Origin: Bacillota bacterium
Lineage (GTDB): Bacteria; Bacillota; SHA-98; UBA4971
Direction: 5' to 3'
DNA: 54,507 nt
Assembly (NCBI GenBank): GCA_024653485.1
Contig: JANLFY010000010.1
Location: 1-54,507, forward strand
Shown here: positions 4,903-28,534 of the stretch, one piece after another
How the letters are laid out: every line of letters begins with the position of its first letter
Position numbering within the stretch: the stretch's first letter is position 1
Position numbers and translations under genes: made by a program
The notes under the pieces: model-generated
Database searches by the model: none
Told to the model about the DNA's origin: nothing
What the model saw: only the letters and a program-made list of their open reading frames with translations

Positions 4903-5278
4903 TCGCGGAGTGCGAGCCACAGGCCGTTAAGCCGGAGTGCTAGCCACAGGCTGCTAACCGCGGCGGGTCAATTCCGGCAAGGTTAGCCCGGGAAGGTCAG
5001 CTCGGGGTGGCTGGCCCTGGGGGCTGGCCCGGGGGGTGGTTCCGGAGGGTGATTCCGGGGGGGTGGTTCCGAGGGCTGGTGCCGGGGACTGGCCCGGGGT
5101 GGCGGCCCGGGACGGCCCGGGGCGGCTGCACGGATATGGCTGGTCCACAAAGGCTGCTCCGGGAAGATTAGCCCCGGAAAGATTAGCTCGGTGAGACCGG
5201 CTGGGCGAGGCTAAACGCATGACGCTCACCAACCACGACGCGTGGCCGCCAAAATGGACTGAAGGAGGTAACGAGGCT
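4903..5278. repeat. G-rich degenerate repeats between hydB and hydA
   Basis: The gap begins with a 27-bp tandem duplication (CGGAGTGCGAGCCACAGGC at 4906, CGGAGTGCTAGCCACAGGC at 4933). It continues with many degenerate copies of GGGTGGTTCCGG and GGGCTGGCCCGG up to about 5145, and ends with GGAARATTAGC copies near 5160-5190. No gene is visible. The many G runs on the plus strand could form G-quadruplexes in the mRNA between two genes that should be co-expressed. Confidence 0.75.
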
Positions 5279-7303
5279 ATGCCGCACGTGACGGTCGATG
5301 GCCAAAAGGTTGAGATAAACGGTGAGAAGAACATCCTCGAGGTGGTGCGCAAGGCGGGAATCGAGCTCCCGACGTTCTGCTACCACTCGGAGCTTTCTGT
5401 ATACGGCGCGTGCCGGATGTGCTCTGTCGAGGTGGAAGGCATGGGGCTCGTCGCGGGGTGTTCCACGCCGCCGGCGGACGGCATGGTCATCCGCACGAAT
5501 ACCGAGAGGACGCTGAGGCTGCGTCGCATGGTCATAGAGCTGCTCTTGGCCAATCACCACAGGGACTGCACTACCTGTGAGAAGAACGGCATGTGCAAGT
5601 TGCAGAGCCTTGCGTACCAGCTGGGCGTGAGGAAGGTCAGGTTCGGGGAGCGGGAGGAGATGCTTCCCATAGACGAAGGGAATCCGTCGGTGGTGCGGGA
5701 TCCCAACAAGTGTATCCTCTGCGGGGACTGCGTGAGGGTTTGCTCTGAGATCCAGGGCGTCGGGGTCCTGGACTTCGCGGGACGCGGGTCGCGCACGAGC
5801 GTGAGCCCGGCGTTCGGCCGGAAGCTGTCCCAGGTAGAGTGCGTGTACTGCGGTCAGTGCGTGGCCGTGTGCCCCACGGGAGCGCTCACGGGCAAGTCGG
5901 AGGTCGAGGCCGTGTGGTCTGCGCTCCATGACCCGTCGAAGACCGTGGTGGCGCAAGTCGCGCCGGCGGTGCGGGTCGCGCTGGGCGAGGTCTTCGGAGG
6001 CAAGCCCGGCGAGATAGGGACGGGCAAGGTGGTGGCTGCCCTGAAGAAACTGGGCTTCAAGAAGGTGTTCGATACGGTCTTCGCGGCCGACCTTACCGCC
6101 GTGGAGGAATGCCACGAGTTCCTGGAGAGGCTCGGGAAAGGGGAGAACCTCCCCCAGTTCACGTCGTGCTGTCCAGGGTGGGTCAAGTTCATGGAGCAGT
6201 ACTATCCTGACATGCTGCCGAACTTGTCCACCTGCAAGTCGCCGCAGCAGATGTTCGGGTCGGTCATAAAGCGCTTCTACTCCAAGGAGCTCGGAGTGCG
6301 CCCGGAGGATGTGTTCGTGGTCTCGATCATGCCTTGCACGGCCAAGAAGTTCGAGGCAACGAGGCCGGAGTTCGCGTCCGAGGGCGGCATTCGCGAGGTG
6401 GACGCGGTCCTATCCACGACCGAGCTCGGCATGCTCCTGAAGCAAGCCGGCACAGTCTTCGACGAGCTCGAGGAGGAAGGCTTCGACCAGCCGTTTGGCC
6501 TTACCACAGGCGGCGGCGTCATATTCGGTGTGACCGGCGGCGTGGCCGAGGCTGTGCTTCGAGCGGCAGCAGGTCGGCTGGGAGTGGACCCCGGAGGAAT
6601 CGAATTCCAGGAAGTCCGAGGCTTCGACGGGACGCGCGAAGCGACCGTGCGGCTGGGAGACGCTGAGATCAGCGTGGCCGTCGTGCACGGTCTCGCGAAC
6701 GCCCGGAGACTGGTGGAAGCGGTTCGGAGAAGAGAAGTGTGTTACAATCTAGTTGAGGTAATGGCTTGCCCAGGGGGTTGCGTCGGAGGCGGCGGACAGC
6801 CGTATCCGAATGACGTCCCTGCGAGAAAGGCCAGGGGAAAGGGTCTCTATCGGGCTGACAGGACGATGCAGCTACGCAGCCCCAGTGAGAACCTGGCGGT
6901 GGCGAAGCTCTACGAGAAGCACCTGGGAGGGCCGGGCAGCACGGCGGCGCACGAGGCGCTCCATACAGCGTACGGGCCACGCCGACGGATAACGGGGGAC
7001 ATGAGGATAAACGGCGCGGCGCCTGGGGCCCTCGATGTCTCGGTGTGCGTGGGCACCGGATGTTACCTGCGGGGATCCTACGACGTGATCGACACGTTCA
7101 CGAGGCTTGCCGAGGACGACGAGTTCATGGGACGCGTCAACCTCAAGGCCACGTTCTGCTTGGAGCACTGCGACCGTGGAGTGTCGATCAAGGTGGGTGA
7201 CGAGATCATCACCGGGGTGACTCCCGAGAACGCGCAGCGCGTCTTCCACGATCAGGTCGCGGCGCGGCTTACCAAAGAGCCTTGTCGGGCGTGCCGCAGC
7301 TAG
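5279..7303 (+). CDS. hydA: [FeFe] hydrogenase catalytic subunit (HydA)
   Basis: Catalyses reversible H2 formation at the H-cluster. Parts in order: N-terminal [2Fe-2S] ferredoxin domain (CYHSELSVYGACRMC), His-Cys3 [4Fe-4S] site (HHRDCTTCEKNGMC), two [4Fe-4S] clusters (CILCGDCVRVC, CVYCGQCVAVC), H-cluster motifs L1 TSCCPGW (295-301), L2 MPCTAKKFE (from 351) and L3 MACPGGCVGGGGQP (from 495), and the small-subunit region. Unlike minimal HydA it ends in an extra thioredoxin-like [2Fe-2S] domain with C590, C595, C627 and C631. All catalytic residues are intact, including the proton-relay cysteine of L1. The ATG at 5279 follows AAGGAGGT; the frame is open to 5219. Gene order C-B-A matches NAD-linked, potentially bifurcating enzymes. 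Confidence 0.96.
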   Translation: MPHVTVDGQKVEINGEKNILEVVRKAGIELPTFCYHSELSVYGACRMCSVEVEGMGLVAGCSTPPADGMVIRTNTERTLRLRRMVIELLLANHHRDCTTCEKNGMCKLQSLAYQLGVRKVRFGEREEMLPIDEGNPSVVRDPNKCILCGDCVRVCSEIQGVGVLDFAGRGSRTSVSPAFGRKLSQVECVYCGQCVAVCPTGALTGKSEVEAVWSALHDPSKTVVAQVAPAVRVALGEVFGGKPGEIGTGKVVAALKKLGFKKVFDTVFAADLTAVEECHEFLERLGKGENLPQFTSCCPGWVKFMEQYYPDMLPNLSTCKSPQQMFGSVIKRFYSKELGVRPEDVFVVSIMPCTAKKFEATRPEFASEGGIREVDAVLSTTELGMLLKQAGTVFDELEEEGFDQPFGLTTGGGVIFGVTGGVAEAVLRAAAGRLGVDPGGIEFQEVRGFDGTREATVRLGDAEISVAVVHGLANARRLVEAVRRREVCYNLVEVMACPGGCVGGGGQPYPNDVPARKARGKGLYRADRTMQLRSPSENLAVAKLYEKHLGGPGSTAAHEALHTAYGPRRRITGDMRINGAAPGALDVSVCVGTGCYLRGSYDVIDTFTRLAEDDEFMGRVNLKATFCLEHCDRGVSIKVGDEIITGVTPENAQRVFHDQVAARLTKEPCRACRS

Positions 7304-7535
7304 CGCATTCTCCGGCCGGGCCGTTTGTTGGTCGGCTCGTGCGCCGACCCACCTCGGGATCACCGGCCTCGGGAGCCCCGGGATCCATGGTCCTTGTCGA
7401 ACGACGGCGCATGGCGACTAAGAACAGGCTCTTTGAGCCCTGTTGCTCAATCAGCCAAGCCGCGCGTCTTGATGTGGTTTCCGGGGCCGTGTCGCCCGGT
7501 CCGGGTGGCCTGGGCCGGGTTGAGAGAGCTAGGAA

Positions 7536-7814
7536 ATGCGAGGTGCCGTCCCTGTGTTGACCATCTTCGTGTGCGTTGGCAGCTCCTGTTTTCTGCGAGG
7601 CGCCCCCGACGTGATCAAGGCATTCGAGGCGGAGATAGAGAGGAGGGCGCCCGGCCAGGTGGAGCTCAAGGGGACGTTTTGTCAGGACCTCTGCACTTTG
7701 GGGGTCACGGTGAGGATCGGGAGCAAGGTCTTTTCCGGCGTGAGGCCCGACGATGTGCCGCGGCTGTTCGATACGGAGGTTGTACCGCTGATAGAGAGCG
7801 CCTGCGAACGATGA
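7536..7814 (+). CDS. Stand-alone thioredoxin-like [2Fe-2S] ferredoxin, HydA C-terminal-domain paralogue
   Basis: A 92-residue protein that is only the NuoE-type [2Fe-2S] fold: C13 and C18 (CVGSSC), then C49 and C53 (CQDLC). It resembles the C-terminal domain of the preceding HydA (both have CVG..C, KGTFC or KATFC, and a GV.P.....FD pattern), so it may be a duplicate of it. It lies 232 bp downstream of hydA and 285 bp before the sensory hydrogenase gene, on the same strand. A role as electron carrier or signalling partner between HydABC and HydS is inference. The ATG at 7536 is used; a GTG at 7554 behind GCGAGGTG is possible. Confidence 0.82.
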   Translation: MRGAVPVLTIFVCVGSSCFLRGAPDVIKAFEAEIERRAPGQVELKGTFCQDLCTLGVTVRIGSKVFSGVRPDDVPRLFDTEVVPLIESACER

Positions 7815-7831
7815 TGCGCGAACGATGATGC
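7804..7831. repeat. 14-bp tandem duplication across a stop codon
   Basis: GCGAACGATGATGC is present twice in direct succession, at 7804 and 7818. The first copy contains the stop codon of the thioredoxin-like ferredoxin gene (7812-7814). Confidence 0.9.
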
Positions 7832-8098
7832 GCAGGAGGACGTGTCAAGACAGCGGGGCCTTTGCGCGTCGACATGCGGGAACTAGCGGCCTGCAATCCG
7901 CTTTCGATCCGCTGCTACCCGCCGACACTCGCGCGAGCGGCGAGGGGGGCGCGGGAGCAGCCGCGCGTCGCCAGTATGGATCGCGGCCCGCGCAGAGCGT
8001 AGAGGGCGCTGGATGACAATGGAGGGCGATGGAAGAAGCGAGGCGAGAGGCTGGCACCACGTAGTTGGGAGCTAGTCGGGAGCTGGAGGAGTGGTACA

Positions 8099-10312
8099 GT
8101 GAGTGTGATCGAGACCATAGAGGCCAAGTGCAAGGACTGCTACAAGTGTCTCAGGTCGTGCCCGGTCAAGGCCATCAGGATGGAACGGGGGGACGCGCCT
8201 CACGAGCTCCACGCGCGGGTGGCCGCTGAGCGGTGCGTCTACGACGGCACGTGCGTCCTTGTGTGCCCGCAGAGGGCCAAGAGGGTCGCAAGCGACCTCC
8301 ACAAGGTGCGCTCAGCCATCGCCGGCGGAGCGAAGGTGGCTGCGAGCCTCGCGCCCTCGTTTCCGTCCGCCTTTGCCCTTGACGGAGTGAATCCTCTAGC
8401 CGTTCCGGCGGCCCTTCGCCGCCTCGGCTTTCAAATCGTCCAGGAGACCGCGGTCGGTGCCGAGCTTGTGGGCGCCGAGCACGCGCGGGTCTTACGCGAG
8501 ACCAGCGTCCCGCTCATCTCCAGCTCCTGCCCTGCGGTGGTGAACCTCATCGAACGGCATTATCCCGAGGTCATTACATACCTTGCCCCCATCGTGTCGC
8601 CCATGATCGCTCATGGCCGCTTTCTCAAGCGGCTCGTGCCAGGCGTGAAGGTGGCTTTCATTGGCCCGTGCATCGCCAAGCACGAAGAGCGGGCAGTTCC
8701 GGGACTGGACGACGCCGTCGATTTCGTGCTGACTTTCGACGAGCTCGCAGGCGTCTTCACGCAAGAAGGCATTGACCTCAGTCAAATCGAGCCTGAGGAT
8801 TTCGACGGGCCGGCGCCTGACCTCGCGCGCCTCTTCCCCGTGAGTGGCGGCATGTTGAGGGCTTCCAGGCTCAGCACGGACATGCTTGACCGGGAGGTGC
8901 TGTCCGTATCGGGCATGAACAATTGCCGCGAAGTCCTGCGATGGTTCGTCGAAACCCTGCAGAGCGAGAAGCTGGGCTCCTGCGGTGCCTGCGACGCGAC
9001 TTCGCAGCACTCACGCGGCGCGACCCCGGACCCGCACAACGCGGGGGCCGTGCTGCCGGACCCACCCAACACTGAGGCCCTGCCGCCGGACCCGCGCACA
9101 ACGGATGTTGTGACACCGGACTTCCACAACGCGGGCGCTGGGGCTTCCCACGCGCGCAACGCGGACTCAGTGGCCCCGACCGCGAGGAGCGCTGACGCAG
9201 CGACCCCGAACTCACACGTGGCGCCAACAAGCCAGCTTCCGGAGACCTCGGATCCAGACCACGAAGCGCCCTTGGCCGGCGCACACGGATCAGCCCCGAG
9301 ACTGCCACGCCTCGTGGAGATGCTAGCTTGCGAGGGCGGGTGCATCAACGGACCCATGAATCCGGCGCGCGATGACATCTACGCGCGCAGGGCAAGAGTT
9401 CTTGAATACATGGAGCGAGCAGGGCACGCAAGGTCGCAGCCGCCGACGCGGTGCAGCATCGGGGCTATCGGGGCTGGCGAAGATGCCGTTCCCGTCGCTT
9501 CAGAGCAGGACCGGGACGGCGACCGGCTCATGAGGCCGGACGAGCACGTCACCTTGGGGCCCACCGTATGGCTGCCGAGGAACCTGCTCCACAGATCGTA
9601 CCGGAACCTGCGACCCGTGGCGCCCACCCCCGACGAGGACGCGATCAAGGCCGTCCTCGCCAAGACCGGGAAGTACGCGCCCGACGATGAGCTCAACTGC
9701 GGCGCGTGCGGCTACGATTCATGCCGTGACAAGGCTATCGCGGTGCTCCACGGGATGGCCGACCCCGAGATGTGCATCCCGTACATGCGCGAGCGCGCCG
9801 AGTCCATGGCGAACGTCTTCGTCGCCTCGGCGCCCTACGCGATCATCGTCGTTGACGAAGACGAGGTCATCCGCGATTTGAACGCCGCCGCGGAGCGCAT
9901 GTTCGGGCGGTCAAGACATGAAATGCTGGGCGGGAAGCTAGGTGCGTTCATCGACCCATCGAGCTTCAGACAGGTCCTCGACGCGAAGACGTCGCTCCAG
10001 GTCGAGGTGGCTTATCCCGAGCTCGGCCTCGTCACGAGGCAGACCATATTCTACGAGCCGGAAGAGAGGCTCGCCATGGCCATCATTGCAGACATCACGG
10101 AGGAGAGGTCGCATGCCGCTCGCCTGCAGAATCTACGAGCGGAGACCCTGGAGAAGGCGCAGGGAGTGATAGACAAGCAGATGGAGGTCGCGCAGAAGAT
10201 AGCGGGCCTCCTCGGGGAGACCACCGCCGAGACGAAGGTGCTGTTGACGCGGTTGATGAACGTGTTCAGGGAGGAAGGCAAGGGGAATGGTGGACCTCAG
10301 CGCAAACCTTAG
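8099..10312 (+). CDS. PAS-domain sensory [FeFe] hydrogenase homologue (HydS-like)
   Basis: A 737-residue protein with two N-terminal [4Fe-4S] sites, an H-cluster domain, a CxxCGYxSC-type [4Fe-4S] site (C534, C537, C542), a PAS domain (about 565-675) and a C-terminal coiled coil. The H-cluster motifs are altered: L1 is SSSCP (S143 replaces the proton-relay cysteine, C144 kept), L2 is GPCIAKHEE (C191) and L3 is ACEGGC (C411, C415) followed by GPMNP instead of GGGQP. Such changes are known from group C sensory enzymes, so catalysis is probably slow and the protein a sensor. In the second ferredoxin site D49 stands where a cysteine is expected (C46, C52, C56). Residues 309-378 are a decapeptide repeat insertion. 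The GTG at 8099 follows GGAGGAG. It overlaps the phosphatase gene. Confidence 0.9.
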   Translation: MSVIETIEAKCKDCYKCLRSCPVKAIRMERGDAPHELHARVAAERCVYDGTCVLVCPQRAKRVASDLHKVRSAIAGGAKVAASLAPSFPSAFALDGVNPLAVPAALRRLGFQIVQETAVGAELVGAEHARVLRETSVPLISSSCPAVVNLIERHYPEVITYLAPIVSPMIAHGRFLKRLVPGVKVAFIGPCIAKHEERAVPGLDDAVDFVLTFDELAGVFTQEGIDLSQIEPEDFDGPAPDLARLFPVSGGMLRASRLSTDMLDREVLSVSGMNNCREVLRWFVETLQSEKLGSCGACDATSQHSRGATPDPHNAGAVLPDPPNTEALPPDPRTTDVVTPDFHNAGAGASHARNADSVAPTARSADAATPNSHVAPTSQLPETSDPDHEAPLAGAHGSAPRLPRLVEMLACEGGCINGPMNPARDDIYARRARVLEYMERAGHARSQPPTRCSIGAIGAGEDAVPVASEQDRDGDRLMRPDEHVTLGPTVWLPRNLLHRSYRNLRPVAPTPDEDAIKAVLAKTGKYAPDDELNCGACGYDSCRDKAIAVLHGMADPEMCIPYMRERAESMANVFVASAPYAIIVVDEDEVIRDLNAAAERMFGRSRHEMLGGKLGAFIDPSSFRQVLDAKTSLQVEVAYPELGLVTRQTIFYEPEERLAMAIIADITEERSHAARLQNLRAETLEKAQGVIDKQMEVAQKIAGLLGETTAETKVLLTRLMNVFREEGKGNGGPQRKP
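9023..9232 (+). repeat. 30-bp (10-residue) in-frame repeat, 7 units, inside the HydS-like gene
   Basis: Seven units start at 9023, 9053, 9083, 9113, 9143, 9173 and 9203. The first four read TPDPHNAGAV, LPDPPNTEAL, PPDPRTTDVV and TPDFHNAGAG; the last three have drifted. The array sits between the H-cluster domain core and motif L3, that is, inside the catalytic fold rather than between domains. Confidence 0.9.
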
Positions 10313-11453
10313 AGTTGAGGTCGGAGTGAGCCAGCTGAACAAGCACGGCGAAGAGCTGTGCGGAGACAGCGTCGAGGTGAACAAGGGTTCCGGCTTCACC
10401 ATCGTGGCCCTCTCCGACGGACTCGGGAGCGGGGTCAAGGCCAATATCCTGTCGTCTCTGACTGTCCGGATGATCGTCAACATGCTCAAGGGCGGCCTTG
10501 CCCTCGAGGATGTCATCGACGCCCTCGCGCGCACGCTTCCCGTGTGCGAGAAGCGGCATCTTGCGTATTCCACGTTCAGCGTCCTCCAGATCTTTCACGA
10601 CGGCTCGGCTCACATTGCCGAGTACGACTCCCCGCCGGCGTTCGTGGGCCGGGGTCGGGAGCTCAGGTGTGTGCCGAGGTCGGAGTGCGTCATCGGGGGG
10701 CGCGTCATTAAGGAGGCCTTCTTCTCCGTCGAGGACGGGGACTGGATAGTGATGGTGAGCGACGGGGTTCTGCACGCTGGCATCGGAGGAGTGTGGAACA
10801 CCGGTTGGGGATGGGACAGGGTCGCGGAATACGTGAGATCGGCGTCTGGCTGGGCTGAAACGTCCCACGAGTTCGCGGAGGAGATCGCGAGGGTCACGAA
10901 CAAGCTGTACGGATTCAAACCAGGTGACGACGCGACAATCGTGGCGATTCGCACGAGGCGCGCTCGCAGCCTCACAGTGCTGGTAGGCCCGCCGGTGGAC
11001 CGCGCGGACGACCAGGTGGTGGTGGGGAAGCTCATGGAGGAGCCTGGCAAGAAGGTCGTGTGCGGCGGAACCACCGGCAACATGGTCGCGCGCGTTCTGG
11101 GCAAACCCATCGAGGTCGATCTCAGGTCCCAAGACAGACGCGTCCCTCCCACCGCCGACATTGAGGGAATAGACCTCGTCACCGAGGGAATGCTCACGCT
11201 GTCGTACACGCTGGAGATGCTCAGGACAGGCGCGAAGCTGCGCGACGTGGCGTGGAAGAGGGACGGCGCGAGCCGCCTGGCGGCTGCGCTCCTCGAGGCG
11301 GATAGCGTCCGCGTCATCGTGGGGCGGGCCATCAACCCCGCGCACCAAAGCCCCGACGTGCCAGTCACCCTAGCGCTGAAGCAGAAGATAGTCGACGAGC
11401 TCTCTCAAGTCCTGAAGAGAATGGGCAAGCAGGTGTCTGTAGAGTACTACTAG
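10287..11453 (+). CDS. SpoIIE/PP2C-type serine phosphatase
   Basis: A 388-residue protein with a SpoIIE-like PP2C phosphatase domain in residues 1-220: the metal-binding motif SDGLGSG (D44), a second VSDGVLHAG, and the closing GDDATIVAI. These proteins dephosphorylate serine or threonine on partner proteins with Mn2+ or Mg2+. Residues about 225-388 form a second region rich in charged helices that I do not recognise. The ATG at 10287 lies inside the end of the HydS-like gene (26-bp overlap) behind GGAGGAAGG. Such overlap points to co-translation and a shared signalling pathway: a redox or H2 signal from the PAS hydrogenase acting on the phosphatase. That link is inference from context. Confidence 0.9.
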   Translation: MVDLSANLRVEVGVSQLNKHGEELCGDSVEVNKGSGFTIVALSDGLGSGVKANILSSLTVRMIVNMLKGGLALEDVIDALARTLPVCEKRHLAYSTFSVLQIFHDGSAHIAEYDSPPAFVGRGRELRCVPRSECVIGGRVIKEAFFSVEDGDWIVMVSDGVLHAGIGGVWNTGWGWDRVAEYVRSASGWAETSHEFAEEIARVTNKLYGFKPGDDATIVAIRTRRARSLTVLVGPPVDRADDQVVVGKLMEEPGKKVVCGGTTGNMVARVLGKPIEVDLRSQDRRVPPTADIEGIDLVTEGMLTLSYTLEMLRTGAKLRDVAWKRDGASRLAAALLEADSVRVIVGRAINPAHQSPDVPVTLALKQKIVDELSQVLKRMGKQVSVEYY

Positions 11454-11509
11454 CCTCGCAGGTCGCCCAAGGCTTCTCCTGACCTGTCTTTCACCAATCT
11501 TGACATCTC

Positions 11510-11538
11510 TTGACATCGCGACGGAAGCATGGTAGCTT
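11510..11538 (+). promoter_or_regulatory. Promoter TTGACA-17-TAGCTT for the TetR operon
   Basis: A consensus -35 (11510-11515) is 17 bp from a weaker -10 TAGCTT (11533-11538). A second TTGACA lies just upstream at about 11500. The palindromic operator begins 13 bp after the -10, so a bound repressor would block the start region. Confidence 0.5.
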
Positions 11539-11550
11539 ACGAGGTACGAT

Positions 11551-11574
11551 GGATGACTGACCGGTCAGTCATCC
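11551..11574. promoter_or_regulatory. Perfect 24-bp palindromic operator, probable TetR binding site
   Basis: The half-site GGATGACTGACC is followed by its exact reverse complement GGTCAGTCATCC with no spacer. The core TGACTGACCGGTCAGTCA is of the size and symmetry bound by TetR/AcrR dimers. Its place between the promoter and the TetR gene points to autoregulation and control of the exporter genes downstream. Confidence 0.8.
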
Positions 11575-11653
11575 TGGAAAGTCATTCCGGTCAATCATCA
11601 CTGTCAATCATCACGGTCAGTCGTCCTGGTCGGTCATCCAGGTCAGTCGTCCA
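11563..11653. repeat. 13-bp tandem array of operator half-sites, 7 units
   Basis: The right half of the palindrome (GGTCAGTCATCC) is followed at exact 13-bp steps by copies at 11576 (diverged), 11589, 11602, 11615, 11628 and 11641, for example GGTCAATCATCA, GGTCAGTCGTCC and GGTCGGTCATCC. The array runs from the palindrome almost to 11660. Confidence 0.88.
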
Positions 11654-11758
11654 CAGGGATGCGACGGGGTGTTCATGAAGAGCAACTCTGACAGAGGGAA
11701 TGAGTCTGTGGAGCCCCAAGAAAGCCGCGCAAGCGGCGGGAGGCGGGAAGGGAACGCG

Positions 11759-12421
11759 ATGTCGATGGACATTGATGCAGGCTCGCTTGGCGGCGAAACC
11801 AGAGAGGCTGGAAAGCGCGACTTGATCCTTGACGCGGCCCAGCAAGTGTTCTCGAAGAAGGGCTTTCACCAGGCCACTGTCGAGGAGATAGCGGACGCGG
11901 CAGGCGTGGGCAAGGGCACGGTCTATCTCTATTTCCCCAGCAAGAAAGAGGTCCTCGTAGCTCTCATCGAGGAGCGACTCAGAGACCTTACGCGGGAGCT
12001 CGAGAGGCGCGCAAGGAGTGTCGCGGTGGGCGCGCGGAGCTGCACCGAGAAGCTGCGCAGGGCGATTTCCTATCAAATGGAGGTCCTTCGCAAGTCGCAG
12101 GATTTCCTCGCCGTGACGTTCGGCGACATAGGCGAGCTCGGGCGGGAGCTCGACAAGCGCACCAAGGATGCGCGCAGGGCTTTCCTCGCCGTCATGGAGT
12201 CCATCATCAGCGAGGGAACGAACAGGGGTGAGTTCCGGGACATAGACCCCCGCTTGGCATCATATGCCGTAGAGGGGATGATCATACACAGCGCTCTGGG
12301 CATGACCATAGGAGAGGGCGCTCAGATTTCGGAAGAGCATGTCTCGCAGCTCATCGACTTGTGCCTTCATGGCATCGTCCGCAATGGCATGGCCTGCGGC
12401 GAAAGCTGCGCCGACGCGTAA
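11759..12421 (+). CDS. TetR/AcrR family transcriptional regulator
   Basis: A repressor of about 220 residues. The N-terminal helix-turn-helix is typical (ILDAAQQVFSKKGFHQATV, then GVGKGTVYLYFPSKKEV). The remaining helices form the ligand-binding and dimer part. The ATG at 11759 follows GGGAAGGGAA and leaves 18 residues before the first helix, the usual family spacing; GTG 11669 and ATG 11675 are alternatives. It is the first gene of a cluster with an RND exporter, a LolA-like protein and an outer-membrane barrel and lies next to a 24-bp palindrome, so it most likely represses this cluster and itself. The inducer is unknown; lipids or hydrophobic compounds would fit the exporter type. Confidence 0.93.
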   Translation: MSMDIDAGSLGGETREAGKRDLILDAAQQVFSKKGFHQATVEEIADAAGVGKGTVYLYFPSKKEVLVALIEERLRDLTRELERRARSVAVGARSCTEKLRRAISYQMEVLRKSQDFLAVTFGDIGELGRELDKRTKDARRAFLAVMESIISEGTNRGEFRDIDPRLASYAVEGMIIHSALGMTIGEGAQISEEHVSQLIDLCLHGIVRNGMACGESCADA

Positions 12422-12502
12422 ACCAGCGGTGTGGAGGCGGCGCGGAGCTGACGGGGGTCACTGAGTTGAGCTGACCGTACGAGGTTCAGGGGGTACGTGG
12501 CG

Positions 12503-14956
12503 ATGGAACGACTTGCCAGATACACTGTGAAACATCCTGGAACAGTCGCGACCGTTCTCTGCGGGCTGACGCTCGTCTTCGCGTGCTTTCTGCCGCGAGT
12601 GCAGCTTAGGACGGATACCGCTGCGTTCGCTCCTGAGGACGACCCTGTGATCAAGGAGCTTGCGGAGACCGTCGAGGACTTCGGTTCACAGGACATCATC
12701 ATGGTTGTAGTCAAGGGAGACGTCTTCGCTCCCGAGACCCTGGCCAAGGTGCGACGACTTGCCGACGGCATCGCAAACCTATCGGGCGTGGACAGGGTCA
12801 CGACCCCCCTCGACGTCCAGTTGGTGCGGGGAGACGAGTTCGGCCTGCAGATCCTGCCCGCAGCCGAGCGCGTGCCCGAGACACTGGAGGAGGCAGAGGC
12901 CTTCCGGCAGGCGCTCAAGTCCACGCGCCAAGGCTCCGCCATGGTCGCCTCGAACGACGAGGCCATGGCCATTTTCATTACCCTCGAGCCAGGTATCGTG
13001 GCTTCGACCAGGGCTCATCACCTTGCCGGGGAGATAGAGGGCCTTGTGCGCCAGGAAGAGAGCCCTGGCCAGGAGACATACATAGTCGGGGAGGCGTACA
13101 TGGGCTACTGGGCCTCCCGGAACATGCGTCGTGACCTCAGGTTCTTGTTGCCGCTCGCCGTCGCGGTTGTAATAGGCGCCCTGTACGCGAGTTTCGGGAG
13201 CCTGTCCGACGTAGGCGCGCTCCTCGGGGGCATTGTGATGAGCGTCGTGTGGACCGTGGGACTCATGGCCGGCCTGGGCTACGAAATCACCATCGTGTCC
13301 ATGATGCTGCCCACGATCTTGGTCTCCATGGGGAGCGCCGCGGGCATCCATGTCTTGAACCGCTTTTACGAGGAGACGCGAGCCGGCGGGAACGCGGAGG
13401 ACTCCATCGTAAGAATAGTCGTTCAGCTGACGAGCCCCATATCAATGACGACGCTTACCACCGCGGTGGGATTCGCGTCCTTCCTCACGTCTTTCGTTCC
13501 TCCCGTGAGAGAGTTCGGCGCTCTCGCTGCAGTCGGGATCATCCTCAACATGCTTATCTCGCTTACGTGGGTGCCGGCGGTTCTGGCGGCGCGAGCAAGG
13601 CGCCTGGCCACCTCGGCGGCGTCCACATTGGACGCCAGGTCGCCTGGAGACGGCCGTCGCCGGCGCTTCCTCCTTCAGGAGCTGCTCGGTGCCACCGGGA
13701 GGCTGGTGGTGTCGCGTCCGCGCGAGATCGTAATTGGTGCGGTCGCGGTGACCCTTGCTTTCGCGGCCGGAATTCCCGGGCTTGCGGTGGAAACGAATTT
13801 CCTTCGCTATTTCAGAGAGGACAGTCCCGCCGTCACAGGCACGAAGGCCGTGGAAGATCACTTCGGCGGGACCCTCGGCTTGTCAGTGCTCGTCGACACG
13901 GGGGAGCCCGACGGCATCAAAGACCCTTCGGTGTTGAACCGCATGATCGAGTTGGAGAACAGGCTCAAGGGACTTGGTGAAGTAAGCGACCCGACTTCCG
14001 TGGCCAGCCTCATCCGCGAGGTGAATCAGGCCCTGAACAACAACGATCCTTCGCAGTACAAGATCCCGGACAGCCGGGAGGCGGTGGCGCAGGAGCTCTT
14101 GCTCTTCACCATGCAGGGTGGGTCGGGCCTCGACACGATGGTGAGCTACGACTTCCAGAAAGCCCTCGTGACCACGAGAGTCGTCAATCTCCCCACTTCA
14201 GAACTGCATCGCGTGATTGAGGCGGTGGAGCATATCGCGGGCGAAGTGTTCGGCGGCACCCATGTCAAGACAACCGTGGTGGGTCTGCCCAAGGTGATGC
14301 TGCGGCTCATGGACAGGTTCATGGACAGCCAGATTAAGAGCCTCGTCGTGTCGATGGCGGGCGTCTGGGCCGTGATCACTCTCGTCATGGGCTCCGCTTC
14401 CATGGGTCTATTGTGCCTCGTGGCCCTCTTCATCAGCGTTATCGTGAACTTCGGGCTGATGTCGTTCAGCGGAATCCCCCTTGACGTGGTGACGATAATG
14501 ATATCCGGCGTGGCCATTGGGATCGGCGTCGACTATTCGATCCATGTTCTCAGTAGGTACCGTCTGGAATTGAGGCAGGGTAAGGGCAGAGAGGACGCTC
14601 TCGCCAGCGTCGTGGGATCGACCGGGCGGGGCGTGTTCTTCAACGCGGCGACGTTGATCCTTGGGTTTGGTCTCCTAACGTTCTCGAGCTTCAGGGCGAT
14701 CTCCGTGTTCGGCCTTCTCGTGGCGGCGACAATGTTCACGAGCGCGCTTGGCGCCCTGCTCGTTCTGCCCGCGGTCTTGAGGCTCCTGCCCGCGGACCGT
14801 GTGCGTGACGCGGGATTCGGCGGAGTGCGGCGGGGGCGGGCGACACCTGTGTCTGCGCCCGCGGCCGCGCCTACGACAGCGCCCGCACCTACGCCCACTG
14901 CTGCGCCTGCGCCCGGACCCGGGGCGGCGCCCGCGCCCGCGCCCAGGTTGGGGTGA
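12503..14956 (+). CDS. RND/MMPL family transporter (HAE3-like hydrophobe exporter)
   Basis: An inner-membrane exporter of 817 residues with the duplicated RND topology. TM1 near the N-terminus is followed by a large periplasmic loop (about 35-205), a block of five to six TMs, a second single TM and loop (about 410-610), and a second TM block. The motif GVDYSIHVLSRY near TM10 is typical of MMPL/HAE3 proteins, which move lipids or other hydrophobic molecules. The ATG at 12503 is 9 bases from AGGGGG; a GTG at 12497 is too close to it. The last 45 residues are an Ala-Pro-Thr tail made of short GC-rich repeats. The following LolA-like protein and barrel suggest a three-part path across the envelope. 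Substrate is not visible. Confidence 0.92.
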   Translation: MERLARYTVKHPGTVATVLCGLTLVFACFLPRVQLRTDTAAFAPEDDPVIKELAETVEDFGSQDIIMVVVKGDVFAPETLAKVRRLADGIANLSGVDRVTTPLDVQLVRGDEFGLQILPAAERVPETLEEAEAFRQALKSTRQGSAMVASNDEAMAIFITLEPGIVASTRAHHLAGEIEGLVRQEESPGQETYIVGEAYMGYWASRNMRRDLRFLLPLAVAVVIGALYASFGSLSDVGALLGGIVMSVVWTVGLMAGLGYEITIVSMMLPTILVSMGSAAGIHVLNRFYEETRAGGNAEDSIVRIVVQLTSPISMTTLTTAVGFASFLTSFVPPVREFGALAAVGIILNMLISLTWVPAVLAARARRLATSAASTLDARSPGDGRRRRFLLQELLGATGRLVVSRPREIVIGAVAVTLAFAAGIPGLAVETNFLRYFREDSPAVTGTKAVEDHFGGTLGLSVLVDTGEPDGIKDPSVLNRMIELENRLKGLGEVSDPTSVASLIREVNQALNNNDPSQYKIPDSREAVAQELLLFTMQGGSGLDTMVSYDFQKALVTTRVVNLPTSELHRVIEAVEHIAGEVFGGTHVKTTVVGLPKVMLRLMDRFMDSQIKSLVVSMAGVWAVITLVMGSASMGLLCLVALFISVIVNFGLMSFSGIPLDVVTIMISGVAIGIGVDYSIHVLSRYRLELRQGKGREDALASVVGSTGRGVFFNAATLILGFGLLTFSSFRAISVFGLLVAATMFTSALGALLVLPAVLRLLPADRVRDAGFGGVRRGRATPVSAPAAAPTTAPAPTPTAAPAPGPGAAPAPAPRLG
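14857..14953 (+). repeat. Ala-Pro repeat tail of the RND gene
   Basis: The 3' end of the exporter gene is a low-complexity run of GCGCCC, GCGCCTACG and related words, coding for an Ala/Pro/Thr tail after the last membrane segment. It stops at the gene's stop codon. Confidence 0.7.
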
Positions 14957-15025: not shown

Positions 15026-15895
15026 ATGATGCGGTGTGATACACGACAATGGGCAAGGTGGACCAAGACGACGCTGGGGCGCCCGGTGGTCGCGGGTGTG
15101 GCGGCGCTCTGTGCGGCGACACTTTGCGCGGCGGCTTTGCTTGGGCCGCTCCGTGACTTCAACTCGGGACGGGTTGAGGCGTCGGAACTGACCGCCGAGC
15201 AGATCCTCGACAGGATCGAGGGCACGACCATGTTGACGGGCAACGGATCCGCCACGATAGAGCTCATCACGGAGAACAAGCGTGGGCAGCAACGGAGCAA
15301 CAAGCTCAAGGTGTACCGGGCTAAGGCCTCTGACGGCACGGAGAAGCAGCTCCTTGAGTACCTGTCTCCGGCGGATGTCGCGGGGACCAAGCTCCTCAGC
15401 ATAAGCGGGGGCAAGGAGGAAAGCCAGATCTGGTTGTTCATGCCGGCCCTGGGCAGAGAGAGGAGAATAGCGGGCACTGAGACGCGGTCGAAGTTCATGG
15501 GGACTGACTTCACGTACGAGGAGATATCCGGAGGCTCGACGTACAAGAGCGACTACAAGGCCGAGAAGCTCAAGGATGAGACCCTGGACGGGCGCAGCTG
15601 TTACGTGCTGCGCCTGACACCGCAGGATGGCGGCAACTACGCTTTCGTCAAGATGTGGGTGTGGCGAGACGAATTCATTCCCCTGAAAATCGAGTTCTAT
15701 GACAAGGACGGTAAAGTGCGCAAGGTGCTCTCGAACTCGGACTTGAAACGAAACAGCAAGGGCAAGTGGGATCCCTCCACCATCACCATGAGCGACGTCG
15801 TGGCGGGCACGAAGACGATAGTCAAGATCCTCGAAGCATCGGAGGACGCGGTTCCCGATGATTACTTCACCATCCGCTATCTGAGGCGGCGCTGA
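15026..15895 (+). CDS. Outer membrane lipoprotein-sorting (LolA-like) periplasmic protein
   Basis: A 289-residue protein with an N-terminal signal (Arg/Lys residues, then a hydrophobic run at about 22-42) and a LolA/LppX-like half-barrel. Recognisable blocks are LTAEQILDRIE, a YLSPADVAGTKLL strand-loop, SQIWLFMPALGRERRI, and GRSCYVLRLTP. Members of this family carry acyl chains through the periplasm and often sit beside RND/MMPL exporters. The ATG at 15026 follows GGAGGTG. It lies 69 bp behind the exporter and 105 bp before the barrel gene, so one operon is likely. A role in carrying the exporter's lipid substrate to the outer membrane is inference. Confidence 0.9.
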   Translation: MMRCDTRQWARWTKTTLGRPVVAGVAALCAATLCAAALLGPLRDFNSGRVEASELTAEQILDRIEGTTMLTGNGSATIELITENKRGQQRSNKLKVYRAKASDGTEKQLLEYLSPADVAGTKLLSISGGKEESQIWLFMPALGRERRIAGTETRSKFMGTDFTYEEISGGSTYKSDYKAEKLKDETLDGRSCYVLRLTPQDGGNYAFVKMWVWRDEFIPLKIEFYDKDGKVRKVLSNSDLKRNSKGKWDPSTITMSDVVAGTKTIVKILEASEDAVPDDYFTIRYLRRR

Positions 15896-16000
15896 AGAGG
15901 GCCGTGCCAAGTGAAGAAGCGCCAAGCGCAGGAGACGAAAGACCACCCTGCCGAGGAGGCGGATGACTAAAGGCCTCTGTATCGAGGAGGTTGAAAGACC

Positions 16001-17557
16001 GTGACGCGACGAGGATTGGCCGGATTGACGGGGCTAGTCGGTTGGGCCAGGCATGACAGGTGGGCACAGCGAGCGCATGAAAGGCGGGCTAAGCGAGCGG
16101 CGGGCACCGGTTACTTGGTGTTGTGCGCGGCGTTGGCGCTATGTTGCGCGTGGGCGGGTGCCATGCTCGCCGTGGGTACCGTGCTTGCAGCGGAGACCGC
16201 GTTTGGCGCGGAAACCGCGTTCGGCGAGGAGACCGGGATCGACGAGGGGAGCGGGTTCGGGATCTCTGAGATTGTGGCGTCAGGGGACGTGGAGCACGCT
16301 CTGGCGATCTCGCTGCGTGGGGAGGGCGTGACTGCCGCTGTGGCAAGTTACAGTCTGTCGCTGTCGGGAGAGTTCGGCGAAACGGGCGACGACGCGCTAG
16401 GCAGCTTCTACGTGTCGGTCGAGGGGGAGTACGATCTCCGCTCTGAAGAGGGAAAGCTCATGGAACTCGACGAGGCGTACGTCGATGTCTACTTGAGCGG
16501 TGCGGACTTGCGCCTCGGACAGCAGGTCGTCAGCTGGGGCACCGCGTACGCGCTCAATCCCACGAGCTACGTCAATCCGTTGCCAAGCGCGGCCTCTTCA
16601 TCGAGTGGCTCCGGCATCCCAGTTGTCGGAGGATCGGGAGGGCTGGACCTTGGCGGGCTTCCGGTGCCTGCAGTGACCGCCACGGTGTACCCATCCTGGG
16701 GGGACTTGGGGCTGGTGGCAGTAGTGAACCCAAGACTGCAAGGAGTGCCTCTACCCGTGGACGCACAGACGTCGCTCCTACAAGGAGTCGCGCATCAGAT
16801 CGGCGAGCCTCTGGCGCCGTTCGGGGGAAGGGCAGAGTTGTCTTCCGACCACTTCACGGTCGAGCCGCCGGAATCGCTGCGTGACCGGCTGGAGTACGCG
16901 GCGCGTGTGGGAACCAGGGTTGGCGGCTGGGACCTATACCTCAGCGCGTTCAGAGGATGGGATGACCACCCGGTCCTCTGGGTGAGCGCAACGCCGATGT
17001 CACCCCTGGAAGTGCGTGTCGATCCTCATGCGGCTTACCGGAAGGTGACGGAGGCCGGGGCAGCCGTAAGCTGCACGTGGGGACCGTACACGTTCTGGGG
17101 GGAGGGCAGCTACGCGTGGCCGGACCAGGTGCCCGAACTCGATGATCCAAACAACATCGCCTTTTCCTCAAACGAGCCGCACTGGCAGGCGGTGGTGGGA
17201 GGAGACAGGACCTTCGGCGACTCGAGCGAGGTGTACCTGATGATGGAGTACATATACAACTCCAGCGGCTCTATCATGATGCCCTACGAGCTCGGGCCTG
17301 GCGGTGAGGTTGAAGCAGGAAACTACGCTGTCGGAGTCGTGCGGTGGCAGCCCGAAGCGGACCACCGGTTTGAGGTGTCCGGCATCTACTGCGTAAACGA
17401 CCGGAGCTACGTCGCGGTTCCGCGCTACACTTACCAGGCGGACGAACACACCAGTCTGTGGCTGGGGCTCGCGCTCTCCGGGGGCGGTCGCGACACCGAG
17501 TTCGGGGCGTTGAGCGATGCCCCCTCCGCACTCATCGGGATGAAGTTAGCTTTCTAG
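16001..17557 (+). CDS. Outer-membrane beta-barrel protein of the RND-LolA cluster
   Basis: A 518-residue exported protein. A long basic N-terminus and a hydrophobic run (about 35-62) form the signal. The rest is rich in alternating polar/aromatic strands and ends in IGMKLAF, the C-terminal Phe signature of outer-membrane barrels. The segment LRLGQQVVSWGTAYALNPT resembles DUF1302-type barrels, which often neighbour LolA-like and RND genes. Just after the signal, AAETAF, GAETAF and GEETGI form a three-unit repeat. The GTG at 16001 follows GGAGG. A strong hairpin 46 bp after the stop may end the operon. Role: probable outer-membrane partner of the exporter; function unproven. Confidence 0.8.
   Translation: MTRRGLAGLTGLVGWARHDRWAQRAHERRAKRAAGTGYLVLCAALALCCAWAGAMLAVGTVLAAETAFGAETAFGEETGIDEGSGFGISEIVASGDVEHALAISLRGEGVTAAVASYSLSLSGEFGETGDDALGSFYVSVEGEYDLRSEEGKLMELDEAYVDVYLSGADLRLGQQVVSWGTAYALNPTSYVNPLPSAASSSSGSGIPVVGGSGGLDLGGLPVPAVTATVYPSWGDLGLVAVVNPRLQGVPLPVDAQTSLLQGVAHQIGEPLAPFGGRAELSSDHFTVEPPESLRDRLEYAARVGTRVGGWDLYLSAFRGWDDHPVLWVSATPMSPLEVRVDPHAAYRKVTEAGAAVSCTWGPYTFWGEGSYAWPDQVPELDDPNNIAFSSNEPHWQAVVGGDRTFGDSSEVYLMMEYIYNSSGSIMMPYELGPGGEVEAGNYAVGVVRWQPEADHRFEVSGIYCVNDRSYVAVPRYTYQADEHTSLWLGLALSGGGRDTEFGALSDAPSALIGMKLAF
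16187..16240 (+). repeat. 18-bp (6-residue) in-frame repeat, 3 units
   Basis: Units at 16187, 16205 and 16223 code for AAETAF, GAETAF and GEETGI at the mature N-terminus of the barrel protein. Confidence 0.88.
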
Positions 17558-28469: not shown

Positions 28470-28534
28470 TGAGACTGTCGCATCAGACCATCGCATGAGA
28501 CTATCGAGTGAGATTACCGCGTGAGATTATCGGG
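28470..28534. repeat. 13-bp tandem repeat, 5 units
   Basis: Units TGAGACTGTCGCA (28470), TCAGACCATCGCA (28483), TGAGACTATCGAG (28496), TGAGATTACCGCG (28509) and TGAGATTATCGGG (28522) fill the gap between the permease gene and the exported-protein gene. Confidence 0.92.

Follow-up and report, generated by a model that had tools for sequence, protein, structure and literature searches.

A predicted TetR operator conserved in an uncultured Bacillota lineage and a species-specific 13-bp repeat array probably seeded by its right arm

The perfect 24-bp palindrome in front of a FadR/YsiA-like TetR gene is, in the reading that we consider likely, the autoregulatory operator of that gene, and the 13-bp direct repeats running on from its right arm are a species-specific minisatellite seeded by the operator, the regulatory role of which is probably small. 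Both lie in the 54,507-nucleotide stretch of DNA analysed here (the window). The original prediction placed the palindrome between promoter and TetR gene, and it is indeed found there, with 12-bp arms (GGATGACTGACC and GGTCAGTCATCC) that are 100% complementary. The features of the region are:

11498–11517, + strand: tandem duplication, two copies of TCTTGACATC carrying two TTGACA hexamers (one copy in relatives)
11510–11538, + strand: inferred promoter of the TetR operon, TTGACA-17-TAGCTT, read by eye, with a layout common to five congeners
11551–11574, unstranded: predicted TetR operator, perfect 24-bp palindrome, core ATGACTGACCGGTCAGTC kept in congeners
11563–11653, + strand: degenerate direct-repeat array, seven 13-bp units of the operator right arm, only in the window genome
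11654–11758, + strand: remaining leader, unconserved in relatives
11759–12421, + strand: TetR-family regulator, FadR/YsiA-like (TetR_N + TetR_C_24); mechanical ORF from 11669
12497–14956, + strand: MMPL/HAE3-like RND transporter, probably cotranscribed with TetR
15026–15895, + strand: LolA_like outer-membrane lipoprotein-sorting protein
16001–17557, + strand: DUF1302-like protein (weak match, below the curated cut-off)

The repressor gene, its promoter and the operator

The TetR gene heads a TetR-MMPL-LolA_like-DUF1302-like cluster. From alignment with relatives its start is most likely the ATG at 11759 or 11765, so that about 105 nt of leader separate the array from the gene, and the ORF called from GTG 11669 is probably too long at its 5' end. 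The protein carries the helix-turn-helix domain TetR_N (PF00440, 68.1 bits versus a cut-off of 24), the Pfam YsiA-like C-terminal model matches it above its own cut-off, and its best-scoring PDB entries by sequence are 1VI0, 3WHB, 5GPA and 5GP9. An AlphaFold2 model of moderate confidence (pLDDT 82) retrieves FadR structures at Foldseek ranks 1–11 (TMq 0.56–0.61). Since the NCBIfam FadR equivalog model gives 99.5 bits, under its curated cut-off of 200, we call the protein FadR-like and not FadR. The region 5219–11453 contains [FeFe]-hydrogenase-type genes (5219 and 8099) and, behind them and directly 5' of the TetR operon, a gene for a SpoIIE-type phosphatase (10287).

The promoter boxes are TTGACA (11510–11515) and TAGCTT (11533–11538), 17 bp apart; a consensus promoter scan did not call the pair, because the -10 box is weak. 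The second TTGACA of the TCTTGACATC duplication occupies the conserved -35 position. The palindrome starts 13 bp beyond the -10 box, shortly after the point where transcription is expected to begin, and a palindrome of 16–24 bp just past the -10 box is found in the window genome and its congeners, as would suit the TetR-family habit of a palindromic operator near the repressor's own promoter. Perfect arms of 12 bp exist only in the window genome; those of the congeners are 8 or 9 bp long.

Relatives were compared with one genome per species, the family being represented by 13 genomes, to which class relatives were added. Allowing at most two mismatches, the 17-mer TGACTGACCGGTCAGTC occurs at a single place per genome (on both strands, being palindromic) in 11 of the 13 family genomes, and in all 11 of these it lies 5' of the orthologous TetR gene. 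It is present in 6/6 genomes of the genus and 5/7 of the sister genus, and the two operator-less genomes (G010 and G011) also miss a close TetR orthologue; three class relatives (G013–G015) have the operator too. Because the site occupies one place per genome and always precedes the TetR orthologue, we assign it as the predicted operator of the downstream FadR/YsiA-like TetR, with a regulon of one operon. The comparative evidence for this assignment is strong, and the original proposal of a TetR operator is well supported by a site that appears to have been lost together with the orthologue. A literature search with the operator string found no match.

The array and its statistics

It had also been claimed that the right half of the palindrome is repeated six more times at exact 13-bp steps. 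Seven units at this spacing are confirmed between 11563 and 11653, though the copies are degenerate rather than exact and all seven differ from one another:

11563, unit 1: GGTCAGTCATCCT
11576, unit 2: GGAAAGTCATTCC
11589, unit 3: GGTCAATCATCAC
11602, unit 4: TGTCAATCATCAC
11615, unit 5: GGTCAGTCGTCCT
11628, unit 6: GGTCGGTCATCCA
11641, unit 7: GGTCAGTCGTCCA

Compared with the 12-bp arm, the six extra units agree at 9, 10, 9, 11, 11 and 11 positions, which sums to 61 against a background mean of 18.8 (sd 3.7). The 13-bp lag match fraction of the array is 0.74, a value reached by none of 200,000 Markov shuffles (maximum 0.58), and the array is far beyond chance expectation. It is found once in the window genome. 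Nothing was found in the plasmid records searched, and the 24-bp two-unit pattern had one match in viral contigs, about the chance expectation, by our own estimate, for 18 fixed bases. Unit position 13, the sole base outside the arm, varies more than the arm does (4/7 versus 11/84, Fisher p = 0.013, uncorrected); this could weakly suggest that the arm is under selection, although with seven units it is inseparable from chance.

Could the array have been made or lengthened by misassembly? The window genome consists of 41 contigs, and its named close relatives are nearly all metagenome-assembled genomes. However, collapse or stutter is unlikely, since the units all differ and the array, at 91 bp, is shorter than a usual read, and we regard an assembly artefact as extremely improbable.

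Short-unit arrays elsewhere in the genome

The base rate of such arrays was established on 454 kb of the window genome, taken as stretches. These contain 77 TRF arrays with a score of at least 50; 200 kb of sequence from a first-order Markov model yielded none. At scores of at least 45, intergenic DNA has 0.67 arrays per kb and coding DNA 0.17, the split being approximate since it stems from greedy longest-ORF gene calls. Units of 12–16 bp are the commonest length class, with 18 of the 32 intergenic arrays. The studied array is among the strongest intergenic arrays of the genome, yet of a common type: species-specific, built of degenerate tandem units and of a length usual in this genome, as expected of an intergenic minisatellite. 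The rotation arithmetic of the original prediction is right, as a 13-bp step corresponds to 1.24 turns, or about 86 degrees per unit, coming nearly into phase again after four units. It has no special explanatory value, however, because 12–16 bp is the usual intergenic unit length here. We likewise dropped the idea that the step is set by the repressor, as it is typical of the genome's arrays.

A few further arrays deserve mention. A very G-rich degenerate one with units of about 13 bp (4974–5133) lies directly 5' of the [FeFe]-hydrogenase-type gene at 5219; at about 5003–5111 the fraction of matches at a 13-bp lag is 0.72. About five copies of TGAGACTRTCGCA form a 13-bp array at 28470–28532, in a style like that of the studied one. 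At another locus (G000:C2, L141, 14086–14222) there are six 23-bp units with ATTCCGG...GATCACC, a pattern that seems reminiscent of the multiple terminal repeats found in IS21-type insertion sequences.

The array in relatives

The array is missing in all other genomes bearing the operator (0/5 congeners, and none of the other relatives). The relatives keep the palindrome and lack the array, which is confined to the window genome; this is one of the two outcomes that the original prediction named as jointly speaking against it. The conservation across orthologous loci that would mark a functional multi-site operator array is absent from this set. In a BLAST search of 11480–11680 against the genus, the alignments to G001 and G002 stop at 11570–11571, near the right edge of the palindrome, which means that the array starts where conservation ends.

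The TetR leader of one sister-genus genome (G009) has an array of its own, with many degenerate units of 23–27 bp at about 15860–15979 (C117, L165) and further ones towards the operator. Some of these units look like the operator core carrying a single extra base (ACTGAgCCAGT). Derivation of this array from the operator was considered and dropped, as the units are closer to a pre-start stretch of the TetR gene that is conserved in that genus, AATTGAAAGAGTGA, than to an operator half. Degenerate 22-bp arrays also follow directly after the TetR gene in G001, G004 and G005.

Could the array bind the repressor or act as RNA?

A matrix built from 13 operators gives the palindrome a full-operator score of 35.4, and the best position within the array scores -4.1 (rank 30 of 454,087 positions), so the repeated complete binding sites of a functional multi-site operator array are not found here. 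As single half-sites the units fare differently: those at 11589, 11615, 11628 and 11641 are strong, each within the top 8–29 of the 909 kb of strand scanned, and those at 11576 and 11602 are poor. In a symmetric TetR dimer, only one of the two heads would be able to recognise an array unit specifically.

What could such half-sites do? One proposal is a functional platform in which the palindrome is bound tightly and the half-sites weakly, so that the array concentrates or titrates TetR or lets its binding extend into the leader. In its favour, the array lies right next to the operator, a strong half-site is preserved in four of the extra units, the spacer base is more variable than the arm, and a FadR-type TetR protein is able to place a pair of dimers on a single semi-palindromic operator (PMC6449355). 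On the other hand, a symmetric dimer requires a dyad, there is no second full operator within the array, two units are poor half-sites, arrays of 12–16 bp are common in the genome, and the array is lacking in all relatives that share the repressor and the operator. On balance we find a platform of this kind unlikely, and its evolutionary extension, in which duplication of the arm has produced an antenna or titration array onto which TetR loads, a newly born multi-site operator, quite unlikely. Among the papers listed by our literature searches, none evidently dealt with a TetR half-site array.

Alternatively, the array could act via the leader RNA or the leader length, influencing the structure, stability or translation of the TetR mRNA rather than binding protein. 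It does lie inside the predicted transcript, and the operator-to-TetR distance varies among relatives from 86 to 620 nt, partly through arrays. Against this, leader (z = -0.98) and array (z = -0.67) are predicted to fold little better than their shuffled versions and the relatives have no such array, and we hold a role in the RNA to be very unlikely.

Discussion

Among the three roles originally offered for the array, repressor titration, spreading of binding into the leader and operator-seeded repeat expansion, the last fits best, with relatives keeping the palindrome in the absence of the array. For the operator-plus-minisatellite reading we propose the following scenario. A TetR dimer on the palindrome would block RNA polymerase, as is to be expected from a site just downstream of the expected transcription start. 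By homology, an acyl-CoA or related lipid would probably release TetR and so switch on the MMPL/LolA-like export operon. In the window genome, the right arm may first have gained full 12-bp complementarity to the left arm, perhaps through template switching inside the palindrome; replication slippage would then have duplicated this arm in tandem together with one additional base, after which the copies drifted. The TCTTGACATC duplication at 11498–11517 points to a local event similar to the birth of the array. The array copies would happen to be half-sites because their seed was an operator arm, and as lone half-sites they would probably have at most a small effect, as a weak antenna, by titration or through a longer leader.

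The finding as it stands is mostly ordinary. It nevertheless pins down the predicted operator of a FadR-like repressor that is conserved across an uncultured Bacillota lineage, together with its probable regulon of one operon, and it provides a clean case of an operator arm as raw material for repeat expansion, for which the relatives without the array serve as natural controls. Any binding of the repressor to the half-sites would make the locus an example of how multi-site operators can arise.

Comparison with known systems

The best solved relatives of the protein are the TetR-type FadR (YsiA) repressors of Bacillus subtilis and B. halodurans (3WHB/3WHC, 5GP9/5GPC), with a sequence E of about 2e-32 and fold ranks 1–11. 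Our protein differs from these in its equivalog score (99.5 bits versus the cut-off of 200) and in its neighbours, which form an MMPL/LolA-like export cluster instead of fatty-acid degradation genes. To our knowledge, no half-site array is known for the Bacillus FadR proteins. FadRSa of Sulfolobus acidocaldarius is a TetR-fold FadR that recognises semi-palindromic sites, its own operator among them, and the operator sequence decides whether one dimer or two are bound; it binds four genomic sites, in contrast to the one operator per genome found here, and no tandem array is described in the available part of that source (PMC6449355). The RptR system is alike in that a repressor promoter carries a series of short direct repeats; however, RptR is a different, small regulator and its minimal site is a complete 6-bp palindrome (PMC12255303), while each unit here is only half a palindrome. 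Degenerate short-unit minisatellites between bacterial genes are alike in unit length, degeneracy, intergenic position and species specificity, and the array described here stands apart from ordinary ones in that its seed is the arm of a transcription-factor operator.
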